A stretch of 64,000 nt of DNA from Paracoccaceae bacterium (lineage in GTDB: Bacteria; Pseudomonadota; Alphaproteobacteria; Rhodobacterales; Rhodobacteraceae): contig JACSRN010000132.1 of assembly GCA_014879735.1 (NCBI GenBank), positions 1-64,000 of the forward strand. The letters are read 5' to 3'. Of this stretch, positions 14,592 through 55,005 are shown in pieces (position 1 is the stretch's first letter; each line of letters starts with the position of its first letter). The notes beneath the pieces were generated by a model. It saw nothing but the letters and a program-made list of their open reading frames with translations. It was not told the DNA's origin and searched no databases. A program made the position numbers and the translations under genes.

Positions 14592-16229
14592 CTATCGCTG
14601 CCGGGTTGCAAAGTCCGGAGCGACGTAGAACGGCGCGCTTTGCGGTGGCAGTTTTTTCCCCAGCAGGATGTCTGCCGCCCTTTCCGCAACCATGAACACC
14701 GGCGCATTGGTATTGGCGCTTGGCTCATCGGGAAAGACCGAGGCATCCACGACGCGCAGCCCCTCGACCCCTCTGACCGCCAGATCCGGGGTGCAGACCG
14801 CGGTCTCGTCCAGGCCCATCCGGCAGGTGCCGACCGGGTGGAAACCGCTTCCCGCATTCGCGCGGATATAGGCATCGACCTCCGCATCCGTGCTGACACC
14901 ATGGCTTGGCCCGAACGGGCGACCCCTGAGCCGGTCAAAGGGCTTTTGTGCCGCGATTTCCATGGTCAGTTTCATGGCATTGCGAATATCGATGACGTCC
15001 TGTTCGGTGCCGAGGAAATTCGGATCGATCAAGGGTGCCGCCGTCGGATCGGCGCTGGCAAGGCGCACCGTGCCGGCACTGGCCGGCCGCATCGTTCCGA
15101 CACCGAAATTGAAGCCATGCTCCTTGCTGACCGACCAGCCATCCAGCAGAAACGGCTTGAAATGGATCTGGGCATCGGGGTGTTCGATCCCCTCCCGGCT
15201 CCTGAAAAATGCCCCCACCTCGATATGTGTCGAGGATCCCGGCCCCTTGTGGGTCAGCAGCCATTCCAGGCCCACGGCAATCTTCCTGTCCCACCGCCGA
15301 TAGCGGTTCAGGGCGATAGGCTCGTTTGCGGCATATTGGGTCAGCACATGGATATGGTCCCGAAGATTCTCGCCAACCCCCGCCAGATCCTGGCGGACAG
15401 TCACGCCAAGCCTGTGAAGCTGGTCTGCAGGGCCGATCCCTGACAGCATGAGCAACTGCGGCGAGTGGAATGCCCCACCGCTCAGAATGACCTCCGCGCC
15501 TGCCGCGGCCCTATGCTCTTGCCCGCCGCGCCGATAGGTGACGCCAACCGCCCGCGTCCCGGAAAAGTCGACATGCGAGACACGGACCCCGGTTTCGACA
15601 GTGACGGTCCTGCCATGATCGCTGTGGCGCAGATAGGCGTAGGAGGCGCTGTCCCTGACGCCGTTTCTTATGTTCATGTCCCAGCAGCCGAAACCTTCCT
15701 GCTGGAATCCGTTGACCTCTTGCGTGACCGGATAACCCGCTGCCACCCCGGCGGCCAGAAACGCCTGATCCATGGGATGCGAGGCTTCGCCGCGCCGCAC
15801 CGAAATTGGCCCGCTGTCGCCGCGATAGTCATTCCCCGGGCCGTGATAGGTTTCCATCCGCCGGAAATAGGGCAGCACATCGGCATAGGACCAGCCCGGC
15901 GCACCCTTCGCCGCCCATCGATCGTAGTCAAGCGCATGGCCGCGCAAATAGACCTGCCCGTTGATCGAGGAGGATCCGCCAAGAACCTTGCCGCGCGGCT
16001 GAAAGATCCTGCGGCCATCCAGGTGCTTTTGCGGAACGGTCCAGAAGCAGTAGTTGAACGGCCCGCCCTGGAAATTCTGCCCGAAGGCGGCGGGCATCTG
16101 GATGCTCCAATGCCTGTCACTGCCGCCTGCCTCAAGCAGGAGGACCTTGTGGCCACTCTCGGCCAGCCGCGATGCTACGACACATCCGGCAGTGCCTGCC
16201 CCGACGATCACATAGTCATAGGCCTTCAT
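14592..16229 (-). CDS. GMC family oxidoreductase (choline dehydrogenase-like)
   Basis: YDYVIVGAGTAGCVVASRLAE, GGSSSINGQVYLRG, SGGAFHSPQLLMLSGIGPA, ASVFPDEPSANTNAPVFMVAERAAD. Confidence 0.93.
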   Translation of the reverse strand: MKAYDYVIVGAGTAGCVVASRLAESGHKVLLLEAGGSDRHWSIQMPAAFGQNFQGGPFNYCFWTVPQKHLDGRRIFQPRGKVLGGSSSINGQVYLRGHALDYDRWAAKGAPGWSYADVLPYFRRMETYHGPGNDYRGDSGPISVRRGEASHPMDQAFLAAGVAAGYPVTQEVNGFQQEGFGCWDMNIRNGVRDSASYAYLRHSDHGRTVTVETGVRVSHVDFSGTRAVGVTYRRGGQEHRAAAGAEVILSGGAFHSPQLLMLSGIGPADQLHRLGVTVRQDLAGVGENLRDHIHVLTQYAANEPIALNRYRRWDRKIAVGLEWLLTHKGPGSSTHIEVGAFFRSREGIEHPDAQIHFKPFLLDGWSVSKEHGFNFGVGTMRPASAGTVRLASADPTAAPLIDPNFLGTEQDVIDIRNAMKLTMEIAAQKPFDRLRGRPFGPSHGVSTDAEVDAYIRANAGSGFHPVGTCRMGLDETAVCTPDLAVRGVEGLRVVDASVFPDEPSANTNAPVFMVAERAADILLGKKLPPQSAPFYVAPDFATRQR

Positions 16230-38603: not shown

Positions 38604-41114
38604 TCAGAACAGGTCCAGCAGACGCTTGAGGTAGTCGAGTTCCTCTTGCGGCCGTTCCGCTTCGCCTGAGCGGCGGCGGATTTCGTCCAGCAGTTCCTGC
38701 GCGCGGGTGTCGGGGTCGTTCTGCACCATGTTCTGGTCCGAACCGATCCGCGCCGCATCGCCAGTCTCGCGACCCAGCGGATCCTTGCCGTTCGGATCGG
38801 CACGGCCGGCCTGACGCTGGTCGCCGCCGGTGCCCTGCTCGTCGCGCTGTTCCTGCGCCAGAGCATCGCCGAATTCCTTCATGCCTTCACGCATGGCCTG
38901 CATCGCTTCGGCCTGTCGGTCGAGCGCGCCGTCCAGGTCGCCCTCCTCCAGCGCCCGCTCGGCCTGGCGCATCGCCTCTTCGGCGCGGTCCAGCGCATCG
39001 CGACCGGCCTCGCCATCTTCCGTACCGTCGCCGGGCAGCCGGCCCGACTGCAGGTCGTTCAGCCGCTGGCGCAACTCGCCCTGCCGCTCGGCCAACTCGT
39101 CCGGATCCTGCGCGCCCGGCTCGCCGTTGCGGTCGCGCTGCATGTCGCGATAGGCGTCATCGGACAGGCCCTGCTGATCTTGCAGCGTTTGGCCCAGTTC
39201 CTTCATCGACGGATTGCCCTGGCCTTCGCCCTGACCCTCGCCCTGCGTGACCTGCAGGTTTTCCATCAGCTGGCGCAACTGCTCCATCAGCGCCATCGCC
39301 TCGGCGGTCTTGCCCTCGTTCATCAGCCGCTCGATCTCGTCCAGCATCTGCTGCAACTGGTCGCCGGTGATTTCCTGGCCACCCTCCTGCGGCGGCTGGG
39401 GGTTGCGCATGGCCTCTTCGCCAAGCTCGCGCGTATAATCGCGCATCGCCTGCTGCATATCCTTCATCAACTGGTCGATTTCCTCGGGCGAGGCGCCGTT
39501 GCGGATCGCCTCTTCCAGTCGGTCCTGCGCGCGCTGCAGCCGGTCCATCGCAGAACCGAGATCGCCCTCCTCGAACATGAAGGCGATCTGCCACAATTCC
39601 TCGGCAATCGCGTCGCGCTGTTCGGTGGTCAGCGGTAGTGCCATGGCGTCCAACTCGCGGATCAGCACCCGCAACCGCTTCGCGGCACTGGCCGAGCGCG
39701 ACAGATCCTCGGGCCGGTACATCATCGCCTTCAGGATTGGCAGCGCCCGCGACAGGTTCTCGCGGTTCCAGAGCAGATCGCGCCGCATCTCGATCACGGC
39801 CGCAGCCATCGGATCGAAGAACCGCCGGCCGGGCAGGGTAACGGCATAGGCCGGCGCCTCGCCCGCATTGGCACCGGCATCGGTCACGGAAAACACCATG
39901 CTGACCGGCATGTTCGCCAGCACCGATTGCGATACGTCATCGACCAGCGTCTCGTCGATCTTCGCGCGATCGCCCTTCACCGGCATGGGCAAGTCCAGAA
40001 CCAGCGGTGCGATGGGCTCGGGTTCGATCGACAGGCCGAAGCGGCGGTCGACCCCGGCAAGATCAAGCGTGATCGACACCTGCCCGCCGGTGACGCCATA
40101 GTCGTCCTCGGCGGCGAAGCCCTGCTTGAACTTGCCATCCGCCTCGCGCCCCATCTCGCCCGAGACCTGAACCGTCGGCGCCAGATCGGGGATCGCCATC
40201 ACTTGCCATTCGCGACCGCCGCGGCCGGCAATGGCCAGCCGGCCCGATTGGCTGACGGTCAGGTCGGTCAGACCCGCCAGCCCCTGTGGCACCGCGGCCG
40301 TAGCACCATCGGCCGTGGCCGGCGCGGGTGGAGCGACCTGCGCGATGTCCTGTTCCACGGTCAGCCCACCCTCGGGGCCGTAAAGCCGGATCTGGATGCG
40401 GGTCCCGACCGGCACCTCGATTGTGTCGCCGGCGATCTCGTTCAGGTAGAGGGTGGGTTTGCCGGTATAGGCGGGAGGTTTGGCCCAGCCCTCCCAGACC
40501 GGGCCGCCGGGCATCGCCTCGGCCGGGCCGGGCGCGATGCCGGTCACTTCCGTCACCCGCCAGAGCGAGCCGAACAGCGCCGCCATGACCGCCGCCGTCA
40601 GCGCCACATAGCGCAGAGAATAGGGATCGCGGGCGGAAAGCTGCAGGTTGGGCTGCACGGGCCGGGCCGCACGCGCCCGTTCGGCCATGCGGGCAAGATG
40701 CACCCGCCAGACCGCGACCGAGGCCGGATCGGCAGAGCCGACGATCTGGGTGTCGCGCAGCGCAGCGATCGGGCGGCCGGGCAGCGCGGCATCAAGACGG
40801 GCGAGCGCCTCGTCCATGGTGGGGCGACGAAACCGATAGAGACCCCACGCCAGCGCGATCAGGGTCAGCAGCGCCAGAAGCCCGGCGCCGATCTGCACCC
40901 AGAGCAGCGGCCCGTGGTCATGCGCACCGAAGGCTATGGCTGCAAAAGCGAAAAGCAGGATCGTCCAGAGCGGCCAGAAAGCCTGGGTCAGACGCTCGGC
41001 CCACAACCCCGCCAGCGTCAGCCTGCGGGGCCATTTCAGTGCGTCGAGGGCCGTCTCGGGCGCGGGATCCGCCATTCCGCCATCGCTTTCCGGGCTGCCG
41101 AAGATCACAGCCAC
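38604..41114 (-). CDS. DUF4175/TIGR02302 family protein
   Basis: About 836 aa; N-terminal TM helices, C-terminal Q/E-rich coiled region (QGEGQGEGQGNPS). Start may be internal at about 41075. Confidence 0.85.
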   Translation of the reverse strand: MAVIFGSPESDGGMADPAPETALDALKWPRRLTLAGLWAERLTQAFWPLWTILLFAFAAIAFGAHDHGPLLWVQIGAGLLALLTLIALAWGLYRFRRPTMDEALARLDAALPGRPIAALRDTQIVGSADPASVAVWRVHLARMAERARAARPVQPNLQLSARDPYSLRYVALTAAVMAALFGSLWRVTEVTGIAPGPAEAMPGGPVWEGWAKPPAYTGKPTLYLNEIAGDTIEVPVGTRIQIRLYGPEGGLTVEQDIAQVAPPAPATADGATAAVPQGLAGLTDLTVSQSGRLAIAGRGGREWQVMAIPDLAPTVQVSGEMGREADGKFKQGFAAEDDYGVTGGQVSITLDLAGVDRRFGLSIEPEPIAPLVLDLPMPVKGDRAKIDETLVDDVSQSVLANMPVSMVFSVTDAGANAGEAPAYAVTLPGRRFFDPMAAAVIEMRRDLLWNRENLSRALPILKAMMYRPEDLSRSASAAKRLRVLIRELDAMALPLTTEQRDAIAEELWQIAFMFEEGDLGSAMDRLQRAQDRLEEAIRNGASPEEIDQLMKDMQQAMRDYTRELGEEAMRNPQPPQEGGQEITGDQLQQMLDEIERLMNEGKTAEAMALMEQLRQLMENLQVTQGEGQGEGQGNPSMKELGQTLQDQQGLSDDAYRDMQRDRNGEPGAQDPDELAERQGELRQRLNDLQSGRLPGDGTEDGEAGRDALDRAEEAMRQAERALEEGDLDGALDRQAEAMQAMREGMKEFGDALAQEQRDEQGTGGDQRQAGRADPNGKDPLGRETGDAARIGSDQNMVQNDPDTRAQELLDEIRRRSGEAERPQEELDYLKRLLDLF

Positions 41115-42370
41115 CGCGGCAGCTTATCTCGGGCGATCATTTCGTCAAAGGTCGGCCTTTCGCGAATGACAGCGAATTGATCCCCATGGACCAGAACCTC
41201 GGGCACCAGCGGCCGGCTGTTGTATTCGCTGGCCATCACCGCACCATAGGCCCCCGCGCTGCGAAACGCGACCAGATCGCCCTCGGCCAGCAGCGGCAGT
41301 TCCCGGCCCCGCGCGAAAGTGTCGCCGGTTTCGCAGACCGGGCCCACCACGTCGAACGGCCGGGTCGGCTCGCCGGGCGCCGTCTCGATCACGGGCAGGA
41401 TGTCGTGATGCGCCTCGTACATCGCGGGACGGATCAGATCGTTCATCGCGGCATCGAGGATCAGGAAATCGCGCCCCTCGCCATTCTTCACATAGATCAC
41501 CTGGGCAACCAGAAGGCCCGAGTTGCCCGAAATCAGCCGGCCCGGCTCGATCTCGATCTCGCAATCCAGATGACCGAGCGTCCGCTTGATCATCGCGCCA
41601 TAATCGGTGGGCAGCGGCGGCGCCTCGTTCGAACGGGCGTAGGGAATGCCGAGCCCGCCGCCGAGATCCAGCCGCTCGATGCGGTGGCCCTGGGCGCGCA
41701 GGGTTTCGGTCAGATCCGCGACCTTGCGAAAGGCCATCTCAAAGGGGGAAAGTTCGGTCAGCTGGCTGCCGATGTGGACATCGATCCCGACGACCCGCAG
41801 CCCGGGCAGGCGCGCGGCCTCGGCATAGGCGGGAACGGCCCTGGAGATGGGGATGCCGAACTTGTTCTCGCTTTTTCCGGTGGCAATCTTGGCGTGGGTC
41901 TGGGCGTCGACATCAGGGTTCACCCGGATCGCGATGGGCGCAGTGGTACCCAGCGACACCGCCACCTCGGAAATCGCCCGCATCTCGGGTTCGGATTCCA
42001 CGTTGAACTGGCGGACACCGCCCTCCAGCGCGGCGCGAATTTCAGCCCGCGTCTTGCCGACACCGGAAAAGACGATGCGATCCCCTGGCACACCTGCCGC
42101 CCGGGCCCGCAGATATTCGCCGATGGAGACCACATCCATCCCGGCGCCAAGATCGCCCAGCGTCTTCAGCACGGCCACATTCGACAGCGACTTGATCGCA
42201 AAGCAGACCAGATGCGGCAGCGGCGTCAATGCCTCGGTGAACAGGCGGAAATGCCGGGCCAGCGTTGCGGAGGAATAGATGTAGAACGGGGTGCCGACCG
42301 CAGCCGCGATCTCGGTCAGCGCGACATCCTCGGCATGCAGAATGCCGCCCCTGTAAAGGAAATGATCCAT
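41105..42370 (-). CDS. lysA: Diaminopimelate decarboxylase
   Basis: MDHFLYRGGILHAEDVALTEIAAAVGTPFYIYSSATL; VCFAIKSLSN PLP lysine. Confidence 0.96.
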   Translation of the reverse strand: MDHFLYRGGILHAEDVALTEIAAAVGTPFYIYSSATLARHFRLFTEALTPLPHLVCFAIKSLSNVAVLKTLGDLGAGMDVVSIGEYLRARAAGVPGDRIVFSGVGKTRAEIRAALEGGVRQFNVESEPEMRAISEVAVSLGTTAPIAIRVNPDVDAQTHAKIATGKSENKFGIPISRAVPAYAEAARLPGLRVVGIDVHIGSQLTELSPFEMAFRKVADLTETLRAQGHRIERLDLGGGLGIPYARSNEAPPLPTDYGAMIKRTLGHLDCEIEIEPGRLISGNSGLLVAQVIYVKNGEGRDFLILDAAMNDLIRPAMYEAHHDILPVIETAPGEPTRPFDVVGPVCETGDTFARGRELPLLAEGDLVAFRSAGAYGAVMASEYNSRPLVPEVLVHGDQFAVIRERPTFDEMIARDKLPRWL

Positions 42371-42461
42371 CGCCCCCTCGCCGCCCGTGACCGCGCCGCT
42401 ATAGCATGCCTCGCGCTCCGTGCAATTGGCGGCAACGGCCCTCCGGGCTGAAGGCCGGCGC

Positions 42462-42659
42462 TCAGAACCCCGCGGACAACCCAACCGGCCCCAGCCGGGT
42501 GCCGACCGTTCCGCCGGCGCCACTCGCGCCCACCGTGACCGGGCCCAGCGTGGTGGCCAGCGATGGCCTGACATGGCCGGTTGCCGTGTCAAGATGCAGC
42601 CCCATCTGCGGCGTCGAACAGCCGCCCGCCAGCACAAGAAGCAGCAGGAACCGCCTCAC
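42462..42659 (-). CDS. Small lipoprotein, 65 aa (GTG start)
   Basis: RRFLLLLVLAGGCSTPQ lipobox; start overlaps the upstream lipoprotein stop (GTGA). Confidence 0.65.
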   Translation of the reverse strand: MRRFLLLLVLAGGCSTPQMGLHLDTATGHVRPSLATTLGPVTVGASGAGGTVGTRLGPVGLSAGF

Positions 42660-42793
42660 AACTCGCCTGCCACCCCGAACCGGGCCGTGCCTGTGACAGT
42701 CAGTCCCGGTTTTTCGGTCGGCGGCTGGGGGGCGCCGTCCACGCCGCAGGCGGCAAAAAGCGACACAAGGGCAAGGGCAAGGATCAGACGCAT
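42656..42793 (-). CDS. Small LptM/YifL-like lipoprotein, 45 aa
   Basis: MRLILALALVSLFAACGVDGAPQPPTEKPG lipobox; located between argH and lysA. Confidence 0.65.
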   Translation of the reverse strand: MRLILALALVSLFAACGVDGAPQPPTEKPGLTVTGTARFGVAGEL

Positions 42794-42827
42794 CGAAGAA
42801 CTCCACTCGGCTCCGGCCGAACCTGCC

Positions 42828-44231
42828 TTAGCCCAGCGCGGCTTGCCAGCGGGCGATCTGTTCGCGCACCCGCACCGGCGCGGTTCCGCCGTAGGACATC
42901 CGCGAATTGACCGAATTCTCGACCCCCAGCACATCGAAGATCTCGTCCGTGATCCCGGCATGAACGGACTGCATCTCGGCCAGCGTCAGACCGGGCAGAT
43001 CAACACCCTTCTTCTCGGCCATTGCCACCAGCGTTCCGGTTACATGATGCGCCTCGCGGAAGGGCAGGCCCAGGCGGCGTACCAGCCAGTCGGCCAGATC
43101 GGTCGCGGTGGAAAACCCCGAGGCGGCTGCAGCGCGCAGCGCCTCGCGGTTGGCCGTCATGTCGCCGACCATGCCGGTCATCGCAGCAAGGCCCAGCATC
43201 AGGCTGTCGGCGGCGTCGAAGGCCTGTTCCTTGTCTTCCTGCATGTCCTTGGAATAGGTCAGCGGCAGGCCCTTCATTACCGTGAACAGCGCAACCGTGG
43301 CGCCAAGGATGCGGCCAAGCTTGGCCCGCAAAAGCTCTGCCGCATCGGGATTCTTCTTTTGCGGCATGATGGAGGAGCCGGTCGTCCAGCGGTCTGACAG
43401 CCGCACGAAGCGGAACTGCGCGCTGGACCAGATCACCAGTTCTTCGGCAAAGCGCGACAAGTGCATGGCGCAGATCGAGGCGGCCGACAGGAATTCCAGC
43501 GCAAAATCGCGGTCGGAAACCGAATCGAGGCTGTTGGCCGTAGGCCGGTCGAAGCCCAGCGCTGCCGCGGTCATTTCCCGGTCGATGGCAAAGGAGGTCC
43601 CGGCCAGCGCGGCGGCACCCAAGGGGCATTCGTTCATCCGCGCCCGGGCATCGACAAAACGTGCGCGGTCGCGCGCGAACATCTCGACATAAGCCATCAT
43701 GTGATGGCCCCAGGTCACGGGCTGCGCGGTCTGCAGATGGGTAAAGCCCGGCATCACCCAATCCGCCCCGGCCGCTGCCTGCGCCACGAAGGCGCGCATC
43801 AGCGCGGTCAGCCCGGCGATGGCGGCATCGCACTGGTCACGCACCCAAAGCCGGAAATCCACCGCCACCTGATCGTTGCGCGACCGTGCCGTGTGCAGCC
43901 TTTTGCCAGCCTCGCCCACGATCTCGGTCAGCCGCGCCTCGACATTCATGTGAATGTCCTCGCGGTCGGCGCGGAAATCGAACCGGCCGGCCTCGATCTC
44001 TGACAAGACCGTGAGCAGGCCTTCCCCGATGGCATCGGCATCGGTAGGGTTCAGAATGCCCGTTGCCGCCAGCATGGCGGCATGGGCGCGCGATCCGGCG
44101 ATATCCTGCGCGTAAAGCCGCTTGTCGAATCCGATCGAGGCGTTGATCGCCGTCATGATCGCATCCGGCCCCTCGGCGAAACGCCCGCCCCACATCTGGT
44201 TGGCGGCCTGGGTCTGGTCGGAAGCGGTCAT
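42828..44231 (-). CDS. argH: Argininosuccinate lyase
   Basis: [33 protein letters not shown]. Confidence 0.97.
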
Positions 44232-44252
44232 GTCGGGGCCTCGGGGGTGAAG

Positions 44253-44855
44253 ATGGCGGTGCGGACAGGTCTGGCGGTGCTCTACACGGCCTTGGCGCTT
44301 GGTGCAAATCTCGGTGCGACTCCGGCGCTGGCCGAGGAACCCACCGCAGTGGCGGACACGGCGGCGGCCACCGGGGCCGATCCGGCCGCCTTGCGCGAAG
44401 GATCGATGAAGAAGCTTGCAATCCACGAGGCACCGCAGCCGGTGCCGACTGCCGAGCTTGTGACCATGGAGGACGCCCCGGCCAGCCTGGAGGCCTATCG
44501 CGGCAAATGGGTGGTGCTGAACTTCTGGGCAACCTGGTGCGCACCCTGCCGGGCCGAGATGCCGGCGCTGGACCGGCTGCAGGTGGCCATGCCGGACTTG
44601 GTCGTTTTGCCCCTTGCCACCGGCCGCAACCCGCCCGAGGGAATCGGCCGATTCTTTGAAGAGGCCGGAATCACCAGGCTGCAGACGCTGCGCGACCCCA
44701 AGTCCGCGCTGGCACGGCAGATGGGCGTCCTCGCCCTGCCGGTAACGGTGATCCTGAACCCCGAAGGGCAGGAAGTGGCCCGTATGATCGGCGATGCCGA
44801 ATGGGACAGTGACAGTGCCCGCGCCGTGCTGGCGGCGTTGATGGCCGGCAGTTGA
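44253..44855 (+). CDS. tlpA: TlpA/ResA-type thiol-disulfide oxidoreductase
   Basis: [23 protein letters not shown] thioredoxin motif; N-terminal signal/anchor. Confidence 0.92.
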
Positions 44856-44896
44856 ACCGCTTGCCGCAGGTGCCCCGCTGCGGCTAGCCTGCGGGC

Positions 44897-45553
44897 ATGC
44901 AGCGCCGAGTCTTCCTCGCCGGTCTCTCGCTTCCCCTTGCGCCATGGTCGGCGGCGGCGACGGGAGGGGATTCGGTCGTGGTCGCCATCGAAGGCGGGGG
45001 CGAGGCGCAGATTTCCGGCGGCGATAGCGTTGCCCTGACGCCGGGTTTGCGGCTGCCGCCCGGAAGCCGGATCGTCACCGGACCGGGCGCGCGGGCCGAA
45101 CTGGCGCTGGCCAGCGGTGGAAGCCTGCATGCCGGAAGCGAAACTTCCGTCGGGCTTGCCAGCGGCAGCGGGAACGAAAGCCTGAATATCTCGGGTGTCG
45201 CAGTGATCGACCGCCGCGGGACGCCCGGCGAGGTCACGGTCGATATTGCAAGCTTCGAGGTCCTGCTCGCCGATGCGCGGGTGTTTATCGACAGCGTCCA
45301 GGGCGGTTCGGTCTTCGTCAAGGACGGCACGGCCGAGGTCGTGCTGCCTGACACCCGCCTTGCCCTGCTCGAGGGCCAGGGCGTCGACCTGCCCGGTCGG
45401 GCCGAACCCACAGGCGGCGGTCTGCCGCCCGTCACCGGAACGCGGCCGGCACCGAGCCCACCCTTGCCCGGTGCGGATGCGCCACTTCTGCCGCAGGTCT
45501 GGGGCGAGCGCCGGATCGAGGCCGCTTTCGCCAGCGTCGGCCTGATCGCCTGA
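44897..45553 (+). CDS. FecR-domain periplasmic protein 1
   Basis: Signal peptide; [31 protein letters not shown] FecR pattern; C-terminus [15 protein letters not shown]. Confidence 0.8.
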
Positions 45554-45637
45554 TCGGTCCGGGGCGGCCTTGCCCGACTAGGCAGATCCGGGTGCGGCTG
45601 CTAGGCTGCGGCAATTGCCCTGTTCCGCGAGGCTGCC

Positions 45638-46252
45638 ATGATCCGACTGACCCGCCGCCATACCCTTCTGGGCGCCGGCCTTCTGCCGTTCTTACCCGGC
45701 CCGGTGCTGGCCAATACGCCGATCGGGACGGCGGCCGAGGTGACGGGCGACGCCTCGCTGACGCATGAGGGCGCCGTCGCGGCGATGGCGCCCGGCGCGG
45801 CGCTGGCCGAGGGCGATCTTGCCGAAACCGGCACCGACGGGCTGGCGCTGCTCATCCTCGAAACCGACACCAGGCTAAACATGGGGCCGGTTACATCGGT
45901 CGTGCTGGCAAAATACCTGGCGGATGTGGGCGGCACGATCACCCTCGGCGGCGCCGACGGCGGGGCGCTGGTCTTCGACCGGCCCGAGGACCTGCCGCCG
46001 ATCGACCTGACCTTCGACACCGCCTTCGGTCAGATCGGCGTGCGCGGCACCCGGTTCTTCGCCGGGCCAAGCCGCGGCACCTTTGCCGTCTTCTGCCAGC
46101 GCGGCCGGGTGACGGTGGTCAATGCCGGAACCACGCGCGACCTTGGCCCCGGCGACGGGGTGAACCTGTCGGACGGCGCGCCGTCTGAGGTGGCGCAGTG
46201 GAAGCCCGAACGCATCGCCGAGGCTTTTGCCCTGGTCGGCCTGGCGCCCTGA
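45638..46252 (+). CDS. FecR-domain periplasmic protein 2 (paralog of the previous gene)
   Basis: Signal peptide; FDTAFGQIGVRGTRFFAG FecR pattern; C-terminus PERIAEAFALVGLAP. Confidence 0.82.
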   Translation: MIRLTRRHTLLGAGLLPFLPGPVLANTPIGTAAEVTGDASLTHEGAVAAMAPGAALAEGDLAETGTDGLALLILETDTRLNMGPVTSVVLAKYLADVGGTITLGGADGGALVFDRPEDLPPIDLTFDTAFGQIGVRGTRFFAGPSRGTFAVFCQRGRVTVVNAGTTRDLGPGDGVNLSDGAPSEVAQWKPERIAEAFALVGLAP

Positions 46253-46312
46253 CCCCTTGCCGAGGCGGGCCGCTTGCGCGCAGCATGGCGGTGAATATGT
46301 GCGGGAGGCAGC

Positions 46313-47002
46313 ATGGCCGGACGTGGGTTCTGGAAATCGTTCCGCATGTTCGCGCCACTCGCACCCGAGGCGCTGGACGCGGTCGAGGCGGTGGCCCGGA
46401 CCCGGATCTGGGCGCCGGGCGAGCTGATCTTCCAGCGCGGAGACGATGGCGACTGGCTGGTCGCACTGGCCAAGGGCCGGGTGAAGATCTCGCTTCTGTC
46501 CGCGGCCGGGAAGGAACTGGTGCTACGGCAGGCCGAGGCGGGCGAAATGCTCGGGGAACTGGCGCTGTTCGATGCCCGTCCCCGCTCGGCCGACGCGACG
46601 GCCGTGACACCCGTCCAGGGCCGGGTGCTGACCCGAGGCGCCTTTCGCGCTGTCGCCGCGCAGCATCCGTCGCTGAGCGAAGCCGCATTGGCGCATCTGA
46701 GCGCGATGCTGCGCGACACCACGGCCCAGCTCGAATCCATCGCGCTCTACCAGTTGCGGGCCCGTGTGGCGCGGTTCTTCCTCTACGCCCTGACACAGCT
46801 GAACGGCGACGACATTCCCGACGAGGCGCGGCTGGCACCGGGGTTGAACCAGGGTGAACTGGCCGCACTTCTGGGTGCCAGCCGGCCGAAGGTGAACCGC
46901 GTGCTGCAGGATTTCCGCGACGAGGGTGTCCTGACCGATGCCGGCGGTATTTGGCTCTGCAACCTGGCGCTGTTGCGGGCCGAGGCCGCGGCGGATGACT
47001 AG
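46313..47002 (+). CDS. Crp/Fnr family transcriptional regulator
   Basis: cNMP-binding pattern (LIFQRGDDGDWLVALAKGRVKI, GEMLGELALFDARPRSADATA) and HTH NQGELAALLGASRPKVNRVLQDFRDEG. Confidence 0.93.
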   Translation: MAGRGFWKSFRMFAPLAPEALDAVEAVARTRIWAPGELIFQRGDDGDWLVALAKGRVKISLLSAAGKELVLRQAEAGEMLGELALFDARPRSADATAVTPVQGRVLTRGAFRAVAAQHPSLSEAALAHLSAMLRDTTAQLESIALYQLRARVARFFLYALTQLNGDDIPDEARLAPGLNQGELAALLGASRPKVNRVLQDFRDEGVLTDAGGIWLCNLALLRAEAAADD

Positions 47003-48821
47003 CCTGGGCCCCAGGCTGCGACGCGCACAGGCGGCAATCGTCTCGGCGGCGCTGTCGCTGGCCCTTGCTGCGGGTCTGGCGCTGTCGCCGGACGGGCTGC
47101 GCAACGCACGGGAACGCGCGCTGGATGTGATGATCCGGCTTTCGCCCGCGCCGGCGCCCACCAGCCCTGCAGTCGTGATTGTCGACATCGGCGCAGCGGA
47201 CGAGGCTGGCCGGCCGTGGAACCGGGTCGCCTCGGGGCGCCTTGCCGCGGCGCTGGCCGCTGCTGCACCCGCCGCCATGGCATGGGACATCGTCTTTGCC
47301 GGGGATTGCGCTGCCGGCACCGGCAAGGACCTTGCCGCCGGTCTGGCAGCGGCGCCGGCCGTCCTTGGCATGCTGCTCTCCGCCCTGCCCACGCCGGCAC
47401 CCCGGCCTTTGCCGGTCTTCGGCACCGCCGAGGGCGCGGGCGCCGGCCTCTGGTCCGCGCCGGGGCTGGAGGCCCCCTGCCCCGCCTTCACCGCGGACGG
47501 CGCCACGCTGGGGTCGATCTCGCTGCCCGGCGACAGTACGGCGCGGGTGCGGATGGTGCCGGCCGCGGTCGCAGCCGCCGGCGAGATCTGGCCCGCGTTG
47601 CCGGTCGAACTTCTTCGCAGGGGCGGGGCGGCACCGCTGCCGGTTCTGGATGCTGCCCCGGCATTGCACCTGGGCCGCGCGATCTTTCCGCTGGATCCCG
47701 GCGCCATGCTGCGCTTTCGCCCCTCAAGCCGCGAGGAACGGCTGGCGCGCACCGTTCCGGCCGAAGCGGTTTTGCAGGGTCTGGTCGCGCAGGACCGTTT
47801 TCGGGATGCGCTGGTCCTGGTCGGCTCGTCCCTGCCCCAGCGCGGCGGGCTGCGGCCCACCGCGGCCGATCCGCTCTATCCTTCCGTCCAGATCGCCGCC
47901 GACGTGGCCGTTGGGCTGCTGGCGGATCGCCTGCCCTGGCGGCCCGCAGGCGCCGCTTGGGTCGAGGCGAGCAGTCTGGCACTGGCCGGCCTTGTGCTGG
48001 CGCTGGCGCTGATGCACCTGCCACCCCTTGCCACGGCGGGGCTGGCGCTGGTGGCCGGCGGGCTGTGGGCGGCGGGGGCGGTTGCGATACATCTGCTGAC
48101 CGGGCGGCTTTACGACCCGCTGTTTCCCGCCCTTGGCCTGGTCATGCCAGTGCTGGCGGGGCTGATCCTGCGGGCCGCCGCCCATGCGCGCGCCGAACGC
48201 GCCCTGCGCCGGCGGATGGGCCAACTGCTGCCCGGCGCCGTGGTCGCCCGGCTGGCCGACGACCCCCACCTTCTGCGCCTTGCCGGCGAACGGCGCGAGA
48301 TCACCGCGCTGTTCACCGACATCGAAGGCTTTTCGGCGATGGCAAACCGGCTGCCGCCCGAGATCCTGATCGCCACGCTGGACCGCTATTTCGCCACCGT
48401 CACCACCATCGTGCTGCGCCATGGCGGGATGGTCGACAAGATTGTCGGCGATGGCTTGCATGCATTGTTCAACGCGCCGCTCGACCAGCCCGGCCATGTC
48501 GACGCCGCCCTCGCCGCCGCAGGCGAGATCGTGCGGGAGACCGAGGTCCTGCGTCCGGTGCTCGGCCTTGGCCGCACCCGCATCGGGGTGGAAACCGGGC
48601 CGGTGATTCTGGGTGACGTGGGCGGCGGCGCGCGCATCGACTATACTGCGCACGGGCCGGCGGTGAACCTGGCCGCGCGGCTGCAGGAGATGGGCAAGAC
48701 CCTCGGCCCCGCAGTGATCGTCGGTCCCGCGGCCGCAACTCGCGCCACGCTGCCTCTGCGCCCGCTGCAGACCATCGAGATCCGCAGCTTTGGCCCTCTG
48801 CCGCTTTTCACCCTCGGCTGA
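46995..48821 (+). CDS. CHASE2-domain class III adenylate/guanylate cyclase
   Basis: N-terminal CHASE2-like extracytoplasmic domain, TM cluster, cyclase core ALFTDIEGFSAMANRLPPE, GGMVDKIVGDGLHALFNAP, RIDYTAHGPAVNLAARL; overlaps the crp-like gene by 8 bp. Confidence 0.92.
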   Translation: MTSLGPRLRRAQAAIVSAALSLALAAGLALSPDGLRNARERALDVMIRLSPAPAPTSPAVVIVDIGAADEAGRPWNRVASGRLAAALAAAAPAAMAWDIVFAGDCAAGTGKDLAAGLAAAPAVLGMLLSALPTPAPRPLPVFGTAEGAGAGLWSAPGLEAPCPAFTADGATLGSISLPGDSTARVRMVPAAVAAAGEIWPALPVELLRRGGAAPLPVLDAAPALHLGRAIFPLDPGAMLRFRPSSREERLARTVPAEAVLQGLVAQDRFRDALVLVGSSLPQRGGLRPTAADPLYPSVQIAADVAVGLLADRLPWRPAGAAWVEASSLALAGLVLALALMHLPPLATAGLALVAGGLWAAGAVAIHLLTGRLYDPLFPALGLVMPVLAGLILRAAAHARAERALRRRMGQLLPGAVVARLADDPHLLRLAGERREITALFTDIEGFSAMANRLPPEILIATLDRYFATVTTIVLRHGGMVDKIVGDGLHALFNAPLDQPGHVDAALAAAGEIVRETEVLRPVLGLGRTRIGVETGPVILGDVGGGARIDYTAHGPAVNLAARLQEMGKTLGPAVIVGPAAATRATLPLRPLQTIEIRSFGPLPLFTLG

Positions 48822-48920
48822 GCCTGTTCCCCGGGAAACAGCGCGCATCGCGCCATCGGCCTAATCTTGGACCATCAAGACCGGCGGGTAGGCCCCGGTC
48901 ACAATCCAAGGAGAAACCCG

Positions 48921-49196
48921 ATGTTCCGCAAGTTCCTGACCGCCGCCCTGATCGTTGCCGCCCTGCCCGCCGCCGCCCTTGCCGGCAATGGCTGGACCAC
49001 CGGCGGCGTCAAGTTCCGCAGTGGCCCCGGCACCCAGTACAATGCGATTGCCACCCTGCCGAAATGCGCCGCCGTCACCACCTATGGCAGCAAAGGCGGC
49101 TGGGTCGAGATTGCATGGCAGGGCCAGCGCGGCTGGATCTCGGCGAAATACCTCGCCCATTCGAACGCCCATTGCGCCTACGGCTACGATTACTGA
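48921..49196 (+). CDS. Secreted SH3-domain protein
   Basis: Signal peptide then VKFRSGPGTQYNAIATLPKCAAVTTYGSKGGWVEIAWQGQRGWISAKYL. Confidence 0.87.
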   Translation: MFRKFLTAALIVAALPAAALAGNGWTTGGVKFRSGPGTQYNAIATLPKCAAVTTYGSKGGWVEIAWQGQRGWISAKYLAHSNAHCAYGYDY

Positions 49197-49297
49197 GCCG
49201 GCCGAGACGATTTCGGCGCATTTTCGGGCCGCCGCCGCCTGCGCGCGCTCATCCGCCCCTGCCCGGTGCCGCCTCCCGCGGCCCGGGCAATTTCGCG

Positions 49298-50086
49298 TCA
49301 AAGGTCGAAGGTTGCGAAGACCGGCACATGGTCGGACGGCTGCTCCCATCCCCGGACCGGGCGCAGGATACGGCTGGAATGGCCCGCATTGGCGATATCG
49401 GGCGTGGCCCAGATGTGATCCAGCCGACGGCCCTTGTCGGCGGCATCCCAGTCGGGGCTGCGATAGCTCCACCAGCTGTAAAGCAGCCCCTGCGGCAGAT
49501 CCTTGCGGGTGATGTCGACCCAGGCCCCCGCCTCCTGTGCGGCGCCGAGGTGATCCACCTCGACCGGGGTGTGCGAGACGATCTTCAGCAACGCCTTGTG
49601 GTTCCAGACGTCATCCTCGCGCGGGGCGATGTTCAGATCGCCGACCAGGATCGCGCGCTCCGGCCGCTCTGCCAGAAAGACATCGCGCATTTCGGTCAGG
49701 AAATCGAGCTTCTGGCCAAATTTCTCGTTCTGTGCACGGTCGGGAATGTCTCCGCCAGCCGGGACGTAAAAATTGTGGATCGTGACGCCATTCTCCAGCC
49801 GCGCCGCCACATGGCGGGCATGGCCCAGACCGGCATAGTCGCGATCCCCGCTATCCTCGAGCGGCAGCTTCGACAGGATGGCGACGCCGTTGTAGCCCTT
49901 CTGCCCCCGCGCCACGAGATGGCGATATCCCAGCGCGGCAAAGCCCTCGAGCGGGAACTTGTCGATCGGAGTCTTGATCTCCTGCAGGCACAGGATGTCG
50001 GGCGCTTCTTCGCGCAGCAGGCGTTGCACCAATCCTTCACGCAGCCGGACCGAATTGATGTTCCAGGTGGCAAGGGTGAAAGGCAT
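49298..50086 (-). CDS. xthA: Exodeoxyribonuclease III
   Basis: ATWNINSVR, LCLQEIKTP, GDLNIAPREDDVWN, RLDHIWAT. Confidence 0.95.
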   Translation of the reverse strand: MPFTLATWNINSVRLREGLVQRLLREEAPDILCLQEIKTPIDKFPLEGFAALGYRHLVARGQKGYNGVAILSKLPLEDSGDRDYAGLGHARHVAARLENGVTIHNFYVPAGGDIPDRAQNEKFGQKLDFLTEMRDVFLAERPERAILVGDLNIAPREDDVWNHKALLKIVSHTPVEVDHLGAAQEAGAWVDITRKDLPQGLLYSWWSYRSPDWDAADKGRRLDHIWATPDIANAGHSSRILRPVRGWEQPSDHVPVFATFDL

Positions 50087-50162
50087 CGCGGTCTCCTCTG
50101 CTGCGGGCCGAGAGCCTAGGGTGCCACGCCCGGCACGACAAGGGCAGCCCTCGTCTCCGGAC

Positions 50163-50214
50163 AAAAGAAAGCCCGGGACTAAGAAGTACCGGGCCTAAGT
50201 CCAACAGGGAGGTG
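50163..50214 (-). ncRNA. Candidate small RNA/terminator module 1
   Basis: Minus strand CACCTCCCTGTTGGAC-TTAG-GCCCGG-loop-CCGGGC-TTTCTTTTGTCC; homologous to 50486-50533. Confidence 0.45.
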
Positions 50215-50485
50215 AGAATACATATCACGATATCCGGACTTCTTGCAGCCCTGTGGCCGCTCTGCCTGATCGGCGCATCAGACCGTGACTTTTTGACCAC
50301 AACCGCAGATCGCCGGCGCCGCCAGTCAGCTCGCGTTCGACAAGGTCGCATCGCGCAATGATCGGCAATGGCAAGGAGACCGGCCTGTCCCGCAGCGGTG
50401 GGCAGAAGGCCCTGCGGCCTTGCCGCCATCAGGCGACCGCGGGCCGCGCAGCGATTGACGGGCCTGCGCAGAAACGGCCGATCGG

Positions 50486-50533
50486 ACAAAAAAAGGCCGG
50501 GCAAGAAGCCCGGCCAGGTCCAACAGGGAGGAT
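50486..50533 (-). ncRNA. Candidate small RNA/terminator module 2
   Basis: Minus strand TCCTCCCTGTTGGACCT-GGCCGGGC-TTCTT-GCCCGGCC-TTTTTTTGTCC: perfect 8-bp stem plus U-run. Confidence 0.5.
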
Positions 50534-50628
50534 GCCGTGTCATAACCCCGGCACGGCAAGGGGGTTCGATGGAAACATTCTGCGCCCGAGCCCCTTAATA
50601 CAGGCTGAATCGGGCGCCAATGCGGCTG

Positions 50629-51315
50629 TCAGGCGACCAGGCAATAACCGCCACTTTCCGTGACCAGAAGGCGGGCATTCGAGGGATCCGGCTCGATCTT
50701 CTGGCGCAGGCGGTAGATATGGGTTTCCAGCGTATGGGTGGTGACGCCGGCGTTGTAACCCCAGACCTCGTGCAGAAGCACATCCCGCGCCACGACACCT
50801 TGTTGTGCGCGGTAGAGGAACTTCAGGATGTTGGTTTCCTTCTCGGTCAGGCGGATCTTCTTGTCCTTCTCGCCCACCAGCATCTTCTGCGCGGGGCGGA
50901 AGGAATAGGGGCCCAGCTGGAAAACCGCATCTTCCGATTGTTCATGCGTGCGCAACTGCGCCCGGATCCGCGCCAGAAGGACCGGAAACTTGAACGGCTT
51001 CGTCACATAGTCGTTCGCGCCCGAATCAAGGCCCAGAATCGTATCGCTGTCGGTATCGTGGCCGGTCAGCATCATGATCGGGCATTTCACCCCGGCCTTG
51101 CGCATCCGCTTGCACAGTTCCCGCCCGTCGGTATCGGGCAGGCCCACATCCAGAATGACCAGGTCATAAAGTCCGGCCCGGGCCTTCTCCATGCCCTCGG
51201 CTCCGGTCCTGGCCTCGAACACGTCGAAATCCTCGGTCATCACCAGTTGTTCCGAGAGCGCCTCACGCAGGTCGTCATCGTCGTCTACAAGCAGGATCTT
51301 GCGAAGCTGTGCCAT
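50629..51315 (-). CDS. OmpR/PhoB-family response regulator (CenR-like)
   Basis: [53 protein letters not shown]; winged-helix effector. Confidence 0.93.
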
Positions 51316-51463
51316 CTTGGCCTCCGTTTTCCGTGTGGATCAGATGCGCCGGGGTGCCGCATCCGGCAAGGGATGTGACGGAAGGCTCACGCGCTCGTGT
51401 CGAAGGGTCGGGATATGTTTCAATCCTGTCATCCCGCAACTAGATAAGGGACAGGAGAACAAC

Positions 51464-52564
51464 ATGATCCCCCATCCGTCCCTAGGCCCCGGCGCCGTCG
51501 AAAACCTGTCCCGCGCGCGGGGTGATCTGCGCATGGGCGTCCCCGTGGCGCTGGTGGGCGATGGCGGCGGTGTGCTTGCCGCGGCCGTCGAGACGCTGGA
51601 CCCCGCACGGCTGGCGGCCCTGCAGGCGCTGGGCGCGCCGGAACTGGCGCTGACTGCGCGGCGGGCCGAAACGCTGAAGGCGCGCGCCTATGACGGCGAT
51701 CTGGCACGGATCGAGGTTCCGCCTGGCACCGATGCCGGCTGGCTTCGCGCGCTGGCCGATCCGGCAGACGATCTGCGTGTGCCGATGAAGGGACCGCTGC
51801 GATCCCTGCGCGAGGGCAGTGCGGCGCTGCACCGCGCCGCCATTCTGCTGGCCAAATCGGCCCGGCTTCTGCCCGCGGCACTGCTGGTGCGCGTGCCCGA
51901 TGCATTTGCGCTGGCGGCTGCGAATGGCCTCACCCTGCTTCGACTGGACGAGATTGCCCCCGAACTCGCCCGCCTTTCGCCGATGGACGAGGTGGTTTCG
52001 GCTCGTCTGCCGATGGCCGCCGCCGGTGCTGGCCGCGTCCATATCTTCCGCCCCGAAGATGGTGGCGACGAACATTACGCCATCGAGGTCGGTCGACCCG
52101 ACCGCACCCTTCCGGTGCTGGCGCGGTTGCATTCGGCCTGTTTCACCGGCGACGTGCTCGGCAGTTTGAAATGCGACTGCGGCCCGCAGCTGCATGCCGC
52201 GCTGGCGCAGATGGGCGAGGAGGGCGCGGGCGTCCTGCTCTATCTAAACCAGGAAGGCCGCGGCATCGGCCTGGCCAACAAGATGCGCGCCTATTCGTTG
52301 CAGGACCAGGGCTTCGATACGGTCGAGGCCAATCATCGGCTCGGCTTTGAGGATGACGAACGCGATTTTCGCATTGGTGCTGCGATCCTGCGGCAGATGG
52401 GTTTCTCCGACGTGCGGCTCCTGACCAACAACCCGAGAAAGGTCGCCATGCTGGAAAGCAGCGGGCTGAAGGTTGTGGAACGGGTCCCGCTGAAGGTGGG
52501 CCGGACCGCTGAAAATGCTGCCTATCTTGCGACAAAAGCCGCGAAATCCGGGCACCTTCTGTGA
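51464..52564 (+). CDS. ribA: GTP cyclohydrolase II with long N-terminal extension
   Basis: [61 protein letters not shown]. Confidence 0.93.
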
Positions 52565-53055
52565 GGGACGACCTGGTCCTCACCCCTACCGGCGTGTTGT
52601 TTCTCGGCCGTCGCTTCCCCTGCACCATCGGCCGCAGCGGCGTGACCCGGAACAAACGCGAAGGCGACGGTGCCACGCCCGCCGGGCTGCACCGGATCGT
52701 CGGCATGCTCTATCGCCCGGACCGGATGCCGCCGCCCGCCGCCTGGGCGGTCCCCATCCGGCCGGGCGATCTGTGGTCGGACGATCCCGAAGACCCCGGC
52801 TACAACACGATGGTCCGCGCACCGCATGGATTTTCCCACGAAAGCCTGCGCCGTGCCGATCCGCTGTATGATCTGGTCCTGATCACCGACTGGAACTGGC
52901 CCAGAGCCACGCCCGGCCGCGGCTCGGCAATCTTCCTGCATCGCTGGCGTCGGCCCTGTGCTGCAACCGCGGGTTGCTTGGCCTTCGCCCCCGGCGATCT
53001 GCTCTGGATCGCCCGCCACCTGCGACCCGAAGCCCGGGTGATCATTTCCGGCTGA
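52561..53055 (+). CDS. L,D-transpeptidase (YkuD-like) family protein
   Basis: [58 protein letters not shown] catalytic H/C region; GTG start. Confidence 0.85.
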
Positions 53056-53118
53056 ACCTTTCCAAACCGCTTTGAATGACGTAGTCTCCGCGCGTGAGAT
53101 CAGCGGAGAAGGACTGCC

Positions 53119-55005
53119 ATGACCAAAGCGGCCGCCATGCCCGGGGAAGAGATTTTCGCGTTGCGCCTCGCCCGGTCGGCGCCCGACCTCTGGCCAATGC
53201 TGGAAACGCTGTATGGCGGGCATCCCGACTACGCCGCCTTCCGCACCCGCCTGTTGAAGGCGCTGCGCAAGGCCTGGGAGGATCGGCCCGACGACCTCAA
53301 ACATCTCGATCTGAAACGCGACCTCGAACCCGACTGGTTTCAGCGGCCGGGCATGGCGGGCTATGTGCTCTACATCGACCGTTTCGCGGAGAACCTGACC
53401 AATATACTGGAAAAACTGGATTATCTTCAGGACCTCGGCATCACCTACGCCCATTTCATGCCGTGCCTGAAACCCCGGGCCGGCGACAGCGACGGCGGCT
53501 ATTCGGTGATGGACTACCGCCGGATCAACCCGGCCTATGGCACGATGGCGGATTTCGAGACCGTCGCCCGCGCCCTGCGCGAACGCGGCATCTCGCTTTG
53601 CATCGATCTCGTGCTGAACCACACCGCCAAGGAGCACAGCTGGGCCAAGAAGGCGGCGAAAGGCGATCCGAAATATCGCGACTATTACCTCATGTTCGAT
53701 TCGTCCGAGATTCCAAAACGCTTTGAAGAAAGCTTGGTCGAGGTCTTTCCTGACAATGCCCCCGGCAATTTTACCCATTACCCCGAGATCGGGAAATGGG
53801 TCTGGACCACCTTTAACGAACACCAATGGGATCTGAACTGGGCCAATCCACAGGTCTTTCTGGAAATCGTCGGGATCATGCTTTTCCTCGCCAACCGTGG
53901 GGTCGACGTGCTGCGCCTCGACGCCGTGGCCTTCATGTGGAAGCGCATGGGCACCCGCTGCCAGTCGGAGCCCGAGGTGCACATGATCCTGCAGGCCCTG
54001 CGCGCCTGTTCGCGCATCGCCGCCCCGGCCGCGATCCACCTGGAGGAAGCGATCGTCGCGCCGGCCGAGATGCTGCCCTACCTCGGCCGCGGGCGGCACG
54101 ACGGGAAAGAGGGCAACCTTGCCTATCACAACAGCCTGATGGTGCAGTTCTGGTCATCGCTCGCCACCCGCGACACAAGACTGATGACACATGTGCTACG
54201 CGGCCACTTTCCGACACGGCTAACCAACGCCACCTATGCCACCTATATCCGCTGCCATGACGACATCGGCTGGGCCGTCACCGACGAGGATGCCGGCGCG
54301 CTCGGCTTCTCCGGGTCGGCGCATCGGGCCTTCCTGTCGGATTTCTACGACGGCACCTTTCCGGGCAGCTTTGCCCGCGGCACGCTGTTTCAGGTGAACG
54401 AGGCGACGGGCGACAAACGGATCTCCGGCAGCTTTGCATCGCTTGCCGGGCTGGAAAAGGCGGTGTCCGCCGCCGATGCGGCGGGAACGGAGGCGGCGGT
54501 GCAGCGGATATTGCTGGGCCATGCGCTGATTGCCAGTTTCGGGGGCATCCCGCTGATCTACATGGGCGACGAACTGGCGCAGCTGAACGACTGGTCCTAT
54601 GCGGATGTGCCGGCGCATGCCCATGACAGCCGCTGGATTCACCGCCCGCAGATGGACTGGACGGCCGCAACCCAGGGCGAAGCCGATGCGACCCCGGCCG
54701 GCCTTGTCTTCCGGGGCACGCGGCACATCCTGGCCCGCCGGGCTGCAACCGCCGGGCTGCACGCCGGTAATCCGACCGAAATCCTCTCGCCACCGGGCGC
54801 CGGCCTGTTCGCCTTTCGCCGCGCAGCACCGGAGGGGCCGATACTCTGTTTGTTCAACTTTACCGAAGGTTGGCAAAATCTGCCGGAGACCTGGGCGCGC
54901 CATATGGGCGCGCGGGGCTTCCATGATGCGCTGTCCGACACCCCGGTCACGGCACATCACGGCGTGGTCGCCCTGCCGCCCTATGCACGGCTCTGGCTGC
55001 TCTAG
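53119..55005 (+). CDS. GH13 alpha-amylase family, amylosucrase-like
   Basis: VDVLRLDAVAFMWKRMGT, IHLEEAIV, RCHDDIGWAV resemble amylosucrase catalytic regions. Confidence 0.85.
   Translation: MTKAAAMPGEEIFALRLARSAPDLWPMLETLYGGHPDYAAFRTRLLKALRKAWEDRPDDLKHLDLKRDLEPDWFQRPGMAGYVLYIDRFAENLTNILEKLDYLQDLGITYAHFMPCLKPRAGDSDGGYSVMDYRRINPAYGTMADFETVARALRERGISLCIDLVLNHTAKEHSWAKKAAKGDPKYRDYYLMFDSSEIPKRFEESLVEVFPDNAPGNFTHYPEIGKWVWTTFNEHQWDLNWANPQVFLEIVGIMLFLANRGVDVLRLDAVAFMWKRMGTRCQSEPEVHMILQALRACSRIAAPAAIHLEEAIVAPAEMLPYLGRGRHDGKEGNLAYHNSLMVQFWSSLATRDTRLMTHVLRGHFPTRLTNATYATYIRCHDDIGWAVTDEDAGALGFSGSAHRAFLSDFYDGTFPGSFARGTLFQVNEATGDKRISGSFASLAGLEKAVSAADAAGTEAAVQRILLGHALIASFGGIPLIYMGDELAQLNDWSYADVPAHAHDSRWIHRPQMDWTAATQGEADATPAGLVFRGTRHILARRAATAGLHAGNPTEILSPPGAGLFAFRRAAPEGPILCLFNFTEGWQNLPETWARHMGARGFHDALSDTPVTAHHGVVALPPYARLWLL

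Follow-up and report, generated by a model that had tools for sequence, protein, structure and literature searches.

The legume symbiont S. meliloti carries a compact cassette that brings together a FecR-domain protein, a cAMP-responsive regulator and a membrane cyclase, arranged as Clr-CyaD1-SMc02177(FecR)-SMc02178 (PMC5498481; CP090106.1). In this organism smc02177 is a Clr target and is activated, and CyaD1 deprived of its CHASE2 domain produces cAMP constitutively, indicating that CHASE2 is inhibitory at rest (PMC5498481). Mutants of smc02177 retained their response to plant extract (PMC5498481); the plant-extract signal used in that test was later assigned to CyaK and not to CyaD1 (PMC7529298), and so the mutant result bears on the CyaK signal. 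Two further systems pair CHASE2 with FecR: a Campylobacterota cluster, in which a CHASE2 adenylate cyclase is encoded with a cAMP phosphodiesterase, a FecR-domain envelope protein and a TPR protein, no Clr-type Crp being described (PMC9239204), and the Burkholderia BiofilmReg operon, in which a CHASE2 sensor gene adjoins a FecR-domain protein fused to LysM and the output is a histidine kinase/response regulator (PMC5192318).

The window analyzed here, a 64-kb stretch of DNA from a Paracoccaceae bacterium, harbors a cassette of this kind (Table 1). Adjacent Crp, CHASE2 cyclase and FecR genes are found as in S. meliloti, their products sharing 48, 44 and 42% identity with Clr, CyaD1 and SMc02177, respectively, and a predicted Clr box again lies by an exported gene adjoining the cassette, while in S. 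meliloti a Clr box lies by the FecR gene and an exported target gene. The two loci differ in that FecR2 lies 5' of the Crp gene on the same strand, whereas the S. meliloti FecR gene is convergent; in the overlap of the Crp and cyclase genes and the extra FecR1 of the window; and in the boxed neighbor, an SH3_3 protein here and a Sel1-annotated protein in S. meliloti. The original prediction had described the four cassette genes as one run with an 8-bp Crp/cyclase overlap, and both the order and coordinates and the overlap (46995-47002) proved right, as did the lack of an adjacent sigma factor or TonB receptor gene among the ORFs read by eye from 40000 to 54000. As an architecture the cassette is not new, the Clr-CyaD1-FecR module (SMc02175-77) being already known in S. 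meliloti and the association of FecR with CHASE2 cyclases in PMC9239204. Linkage of FecR2, Crp and cyclase is kept across many Alphaproteobacteria among the related loci that we compared, indicating that the run is not a product of chance. With a Clr-type Crp, a CHASE2 cyclase, an SMc02177-type FecR and a predicted Clr box by an exported gene all present, the cassette is probably a CyaD1-Clr-type cAMP module whose Crp output would be at this box.

Table 1. Features of the cassette and its predicted target in the window
Feature	Position	Strand	Description	Basis
FecR1	44897..45553	+	diverged exported FecR-like protein	Twin-Arg-like leader, weak Pfam FecR
FecR2	45638..46252	+	exported FecR-domain protein	Pfam FecR, homologue of S. 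meliloti SMc02177
Crp/Fnr regulator, Clr type	46313..47002	+		cNMP_binding + HTH_Crp_2
CHASE2 class III adenylate cyclase, CyaD1 type	46995..48821	+		CHASE2 + Guanylate_cyc
Predicted Clr binding site TGTTCCCCGGGAAACA	48825..48840	.		only HGTYHCNNNNGRWACA match in 64 kb
Putative -10 element TAATCT	48862..48867	+		read from sequence
SH3_3-domain protein, small (91 aa) and exported; predicted target of Clr/cAMP	48921..49196	+		Pfam SH3_3

The cyclase matches Pfam CHASE2 (E 3.5e-25) and Guanylate_cyc (E 7.5e-12), with helices at residues 6-30 and 320-411 flanking the CHASE2 region. A fold search with the full protein was uninformative on CHASE2, its best 50 matches all being cyclases by name. The metal-binding aspartates D442 and D486, the substrate residues K482 and D549, and N558 and R562 are all present; K482, D442, D486 and N558 are invariant among the relatives covering these positions, and D549 and R562 have one exception each. 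The earlier proposal that the lysine of VDKIVGDG (K482) is in line with ATP use is thus sustained, all the ATP-specific residues that we checked being kept, and by residues and homology the protein is an adenylate cyclase of the CyaD1 type. It was also the one class III cyclase and the one CHASE2 protein found in the genome of the window, whereas S. meliloti has 28 AC/GC genes.

The neighboring Crp carries cNMP_binding (E 1.3e-17) and HTH_Crp_2 (E 1.1e-13) domains, and among solved structures its closest match was S. meliloti Clr (7pza, E 2.5e-63). Its cNMP-contact residues G81, E82, R91, S92, T136 and T137 are retained, the pocket residues given in PMC10127613 being G85, E86, R95, S96, T140 and T141; from structure and residues we infer that this Clr-type Crp binds cAMP.

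The predicted Clr box lies 3 bp past the end of the cyclase gene. When both strands of the 64 kb were scanned it was the single HGTYHCNNNNGRWACA match, shuffled sequences giving a mean of 0.19 matches and none of 100 giving two. As a positive control, scanning for the box in S. meliloti picked up the one that separates the FecR gene from the gene at the SMc02178 position. Near the cassettes of 36 relatives and the window, 22 sites with at least 11/12 matches were found, compared to 1.0 in shuffles and 2 with the reversed motif, and 8 perfect boxes compared to 0 in both controls. Within the window's family, boxes were found at 4/5 Clr-type loci, the remaining one lying on a contig of 4 kb, whereas 0/25 of the other CHASE2 cyclase loci had one at 11/12 matches. 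Downstream lies TAATCT, a putative -10 that is weak by itself: it matches TATAAT at 3/6 positions, and CCTAAT, 2 bp 5' of it, at 4. The 21-bp spacing between the box and this -10 is common to several relatives. Given a transcript start at 48874, the box is centered at -41.5, the class II CRP geometry. The gene that follows has an AAGGAGA ribosome site and an ATG at 48921 and encodes a protein matching Pfam SH3_3 (E 4.7e-12), and an SH3 gene likewise adjoins the cassette in five relatives (L004, L005, L009, L011 and L092). These observations make the exported SH3_3 gene the predicted Clr/cAMP target of the cassette.

A palindrome sitting right after a stop codon could also be the stem of a cyclase terminator, or a chance site, and near matches do run at background level across the genome: TGTTCCN4GGAACA with one mismatch occurs at 15 sites, compared to 18 for the reversed control. 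We consider this explanation quite unlikely, in view of the single match in 64 kb and the strong excess near the relatives' cassettes, the kept spacing to a -10-like hexamer beside a conserved SH3 gene, and the absence of the palindrome from the output of a terminator scan. The background count, no higher than that of the reversed control, and the location of most matches inside genes did lead us to reject a genome-wide Clr regulon drawn from the motif alone. Two of the genomic sites that fit the strict consensus read TGTTTCACGTGAAACA, a parS-like sequence in appearance.

As for the two secreted FecR-domain proteins of the original prediction, FecR2 is one. It scored E 6e-5 and 23.8 bits against Pfam FecR (cut-off 24) and 25.3 bits, over the cut-off, in another Pfam search, and its AF2 model (pLDDT 88.8) resembles the periplasmic FecR domain of PupR (6ovk, E 1e-5, TM 0.53). 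By Pfam and alignment it consists of an export signal at its start followed by a FecR domain alone, the RR leader being almost invariant among 24 aligned homologues. In FecIRA cell-surface signaling (PupR, FecR) there are a cytoplasmic anti-sigma region, a sigma factor and a TonB receptor; FecR2 is wholly exported and has no anti-sigma region, and no gene for an ECF sigma factor or TonB receptor was seen among the ORFs from 40000 to 54000, so that a classical FecIRA system was rejected.

FecR1 answers to the description more weakly. Its leader, MQRRVFLAG, is Twin-Arg-like as read directly from the sequence, its Pfam FecR match is under the cut-off (E 0.078, 13.9 bits), and it shares 28% identity with FecR2 over 165 columns (E 0.003). 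A profile of FecR2 relatives finds it at E 3e-12, which makes it a probable diverged paralogue. No strong counterpart was found beside 36 related loci (L004-L039), and a conserved FecR pair was consequently rejected; FecR2 alone is conserved, and FecR1, which would be a diverged, lineage-specific extra, probably stands outside the core module.

Of 249 genera in the window's family, the 5 that have FecR2 are also the 5 with the Clr-type cyclase, and the two genes are adjacent in 5/5. We rejected the idea that the family's other CHASE2 cyclases have no FecR, since at a lower threshold a FecR protein of a different, larger class was found adjacent to 22/25 of them. Both domains occur in 114 of 289 alphaproteobacterial genomes (Fisher 5e-49), FecR-CHASE2 pairs were present in 10/20 of a near-systematic sample, and at least 31 pairs lie under 3.5 kb apart, a lower bound and not a rate, the CHASE2 list having been ranked and the FecR list partly hand-picked. 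That FecR is tied to CHASE2 cyclases even outside the Clr-type cassette points to a FecR–CHASE2 partnership.

A gene island inherited as a whole, its FecR and cyclase having no direct bearing on each other's function, could yield both the linkage and the correlation of tree distances (r 0.87), and the spread in the family is patchy (5/249 genera). Yet adjacency persists though order and strand vary, FecR being upstream or convergent and Crp in places divergent, and a different FecR class adjoins the other CHASE2 cyclases; we regard common ancestry alone as improbable. Two observations do speak against a role of FecR2 at the cyclase. In some relatives FecR is convergent to the cyclase and in Gemmobacter it lies 6.6 kb away, suggesting that the two need not be co-expressed; and around five related cassettes (L006, L008, L024, L029 and L030), no FecR2 match was found within the DNA examined.

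A stronger contender, though still unlikely, is that FecR2 does not sense but is produced in response: Clr-cAMP would switch on fecR2 and other exported proteins, and FecR2 would do its work in the envelope without any part in controlling the cyclase. The activation of smc02177 by Clr and its dispensability for the plant-extract response fit this explanation, as do Clr boxes 5' of FecR2 in five relatives (L092, L019, L022, L036 and L037). Against it, the window has no Clr box with at least 9/12 matches 5' of the Crp gene or of either FecR gene, and the plant-extract signal has been reassigned away from CyaD1. Moreover, FecR proteins lie beside CHASE2 cyclases that have neither Clr-type cassette nor box, and beside CHASE2 histidine kinases (PMC5192318), indicating that their shared partner is CHASE2. 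The roles of target and feedback partner are in any case compatible. On balance we lean towards FecR2 acting on CHASE2 as a partner or co-receptor.

Taken together, we propose that CHASE2, outside the inner membrane, would keep the class III domain in the cytoplasm restrained, and that a signal reaching the envelope would release the cyclase to make cAMP from ATP. The co-encoded Clr-type Crp would bind this cAMP and then the 48825-48840 palindrome, giving class II activation of the adjacent exported SH3_3 gene; a small number of further genes would be activated as well. In the compartment of CHASE2, which it would reach probably through Tat, the exported FecR2 would most likely serve as partner or co-receptor of CHASE2 and tune the cyclase, the contact, sign and signal all being conjectural. 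Of the signaling layout foreseen by the original prediction, a CHASE2 adenylate cyclase feeding a neighboring cAMP-type Crp, with an exported FecR present, stands; a closed module is not supported, since the probable local output is the exported SH3 protein with its Clr box, and the genome offers at least one candidate besides.

What is new here is the predicted target gene beside the cassette, the survey evidence for FecR/CHASE2-cyclase gene linkage, and the recognition that the earlier negative FecR-sensor test concerned a signal later assigned to CyaK, a different cyclase. More tentatively, FecR-domain proteins may be general periplasmic co-receptors of CHASE2 sensors, coupling envelope or outer-membrane signals to cAMP synthesis; with the same reserve, the role that FecR plays for sigma factors may have been redirected to serve a cyclase and, through Clr, a regulon made up of exported proteins. 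The FecR beside CyaD1 has a symbiosis phenotype. With one class III cyclase, one CHASE2 protein and a predicted target gene adjoining the cassette, the genome of the window offers a simpler test case than S. meliloti and its 28 cyclase genes.

Judged from protein identity, shared locus content and best matches in the S. meliloti genome CP090106.1, the gene run in the window is the Clr–CyaD1–FecR cassette: its Crp, cyclase and FecR2 are 48%, 44% and 42% identical to their S. meliloti counterparts, and the best matches of the window proteins include CyaD1 and its neighbouring FecR. The originally predicted run, with an 8-bp overlap between the Crp and cyclase genes, agrees with the coordinates on the + strand. 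FecR lies upstream and on the same strand in the window, whereas in S. meliloti the order is Crp/Fnr, cyaD1, a convergent FecR, a Sel1-annotated protein and a phosphodiesterase. The last of these, annotated as a phosphodiesterase gene (7899-8705 of L117, the fetched S. meliloti locus) and two genes past FecR, may be SpdA, and no counterpart of it was noticed adjoining the window cassette. SpdA is a 2',3'-cNMP phosphodiesterase (PMC4222275). In a cyclase tree the window's nearest group is Pararhodobacter (L004, L005; support 100), within a wider grouping that takes in Rhizobiaceae, other loci of its own family being placed elsewhere, a pattern possibly due to patchy transfer or old paralogy.

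Features of the cassette and its flanks (window coordinates)
Feature	Position	Strand	Remarks
TlpA-like thioredoxin gene	44247-44855	+	ends 41 bp 5' of FecR1
FecR1	44897-45553	+	Pfam FecR below cut-off
FecR2	45638-46252	+	Pfam FecR at cut-off
Crp	46313-47002	+	Pfam cNMP_binding and HTH_Crp_2, strong support
Cyclase	46995-48821	+	Pfam CHASE2 and Guanylate_cyc, strong support
Predicted Clr box	48825-48840		near-palindrome, 3 bp past cyclase
Putative -10, TAATCT	48862-48867		hexamer weak by itself
Exported SH3_3 protein, 91 aa	48921-49196		Pfam; 3' of predicted Clr box

Judged by their residues, cyclase and regulator both appear functional. Nearly every relative retains metal-binding Asp 442 and 486, substrate Lys 482 and Asp 549, and the Asn/Arg pair 558 and 562, a set that is ATP-type among class III cyclases and that bears out the lysine proposed to fit ATP use. 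The closest solved structure to Crp is S. meliloti Clr (7pza, E 2.5e-63), whose nucleotide contacts G85, E86, R95, S96, T140 and T141 (PMC10127613) are kept as G81, E82, R91, S92, T136 and T137. Since S. meliloti Clr responds to both cAMP and cGMP, we do not assume that the window Crp uses cAMP only. By the profile models searched, the window's genome holds one class III cyclase and one CHASE2 protein, alongside three cNMP-binding domain matches.

Two FecR proteins had been proposed; Pfam bears this out, at its cut-off, for FecR2, and FecR1 is probably a diverged paralogue, since the FecR2-family profile matches it at E 3e-12. At the 36 related loci no strong FecR1 counterpart was found, the FecR1 profile matching FecR2 homologues only. 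FecR1 also matches the NCBIfam LapA retention module weakly (E 3.4e-5, below cut-off), and it may be co-transcribed with the thioredoxin gene instead of FecR2. A near-invariant RR in the FecR2 leader, missing in three homologue loci (L019, L095 and L096), suggests export by Tat. The predicted FecR2 structure (pLDDT 88.8) resembles the periplasmic part of PupR, a signal-relaying domain.

According to PMC5498481, the S. meliloti FecR gene smc02177 is Clr-activated, and its mutant hyperinfects as a clr mutant does and retains the response to Medicago shoot extract; its authors concluded that smc02177 plays no part in perception, while allowing that other signals might differ. A later paper, PMC7529298, has signal 1 (nodules, shoots) transduced by CyaK, and CyaD1 and CyaD2 serving another signal, 1'. 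Because signal 1 goes via CyaK, the negative smc02177 result is no test of FecR as a partner of CyaD1, its gene neighbour. CyaD1 without CHASE2 produces cAMP constitutively (PMC5498481), so that CHASE2 restrains the cyclase; this restraint could be lifted or strengthened by a partnering FecR. The evidence supports the proposed chain from envelope through CHASE2 and cAMP to Crp well, as far as the step at FecR, which we infer.

The suggested check on co-occurrence found FecR associated with CHASE2 cyclases. The survey of the window's family took one genome per genus for 249 genera. Five of these genomes had a FecR2-type gene (E <= 5.2e-57), exactly those with a Clr-type cyclase (E <= 4.5e-172), and the two were adjacent in all five; one further genome carried a weaker FecR (1.6e-34). 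At the next 25 CHASE2 cyclase loci of this survey, none had a Clr box matching at least 11 of 12 consensus positions, and another FecR-domain ORF adjoined 22, two of them Pfam-confirmed. In several FecR-domain neighbours of CHASE2 cyclases (L072, L074, L077 and similar loci) the C-terminal part is long, acidic and repeat-like, as in large surface adhesins. Across 289 alphaproteobacterial genomes our tallies gave 114 with both FecR and CHASE2, 5 with FecR only, 24 with CHASE2 only and 146 with neither, genome size being a confounder, and FecR lay within ~6 kb in 10/20 CHASE2 loci of a near-systematic sample. FecR is also paired with a CHASE2 cyclase in Campylobacterota (PMC9239204) and with a CHASE2 histidine kinase in Burkholderia (PMC5192318); what stays constant across the pairings is CHASE2, a periplasmic domain that shares its compartment with exported FecR.

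The published Clr consensus, HGTYHCNNNNGRWACA (PMC5498481), has a single site in the 64-kb window, and the SH3_3 gene beyond it is a predicted Clr target. With TAATCT as the -10, the centre of the box would fall at -41.5, where class II CRP sites lie. The same scan recovered, as a positive control, the S. meliloti intergenic site at the FecR/SMc02178 position. The 36 loci and the window together hold 22 sites with at least 11/12 matches; Markov shuffles gave 1.0 and the reversed motif 2. The 22 are not all independent events, as some loci are close relatives. Predicted boxes lie ahead of the SH3 gene (L004, L005, L009, L011), FecR2 (L092, L022, L019, L036, L037) or Crp (L093, L094), and in Gemmobacter fulvus a perfect box is flanked by crp and, divergent from it, the gene of an RTX-repeat protein. 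Downstream of the cyclase, L004 (6813-7732) and L005 (6723-7651) carry three tandem Clr-like boxes. Every box precedes the gene of a small exported protein, SH3_3 in the first case, and keeps the 21-bp distance to a -10-like hexamer, by sequence a local mini-regulon of Pararhodobacter and a related Rhodobacter-labelled strain.

Genome-wide, Clr near matches in the window's genome were no more frequent than background. One intergenic Clr-like box on contig C118 (10225-10240, AGTTCCCTGGGGAACA; L051) has TATCCT at the class II position, and the gene 3' of it is a second candidate target, whose 136-aa product starts with an export-like leader and matches no Pfam family. On contig C89, TGTTTCACGTGAAACA occurs twice, 5.3 kb apart (15732-15747 and 21086-21101; L049, L050); we take it to be parS-like, and as a nearby ORF seems to resemble MnmG, these sites may be near the replication origin.

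The cassette is real, functional-looking and conserved, yet of a known kind; what this analysis adds is the SH3 gene as a predicted target, the counts from the surveys and a gap recognised in the published test of FecR.
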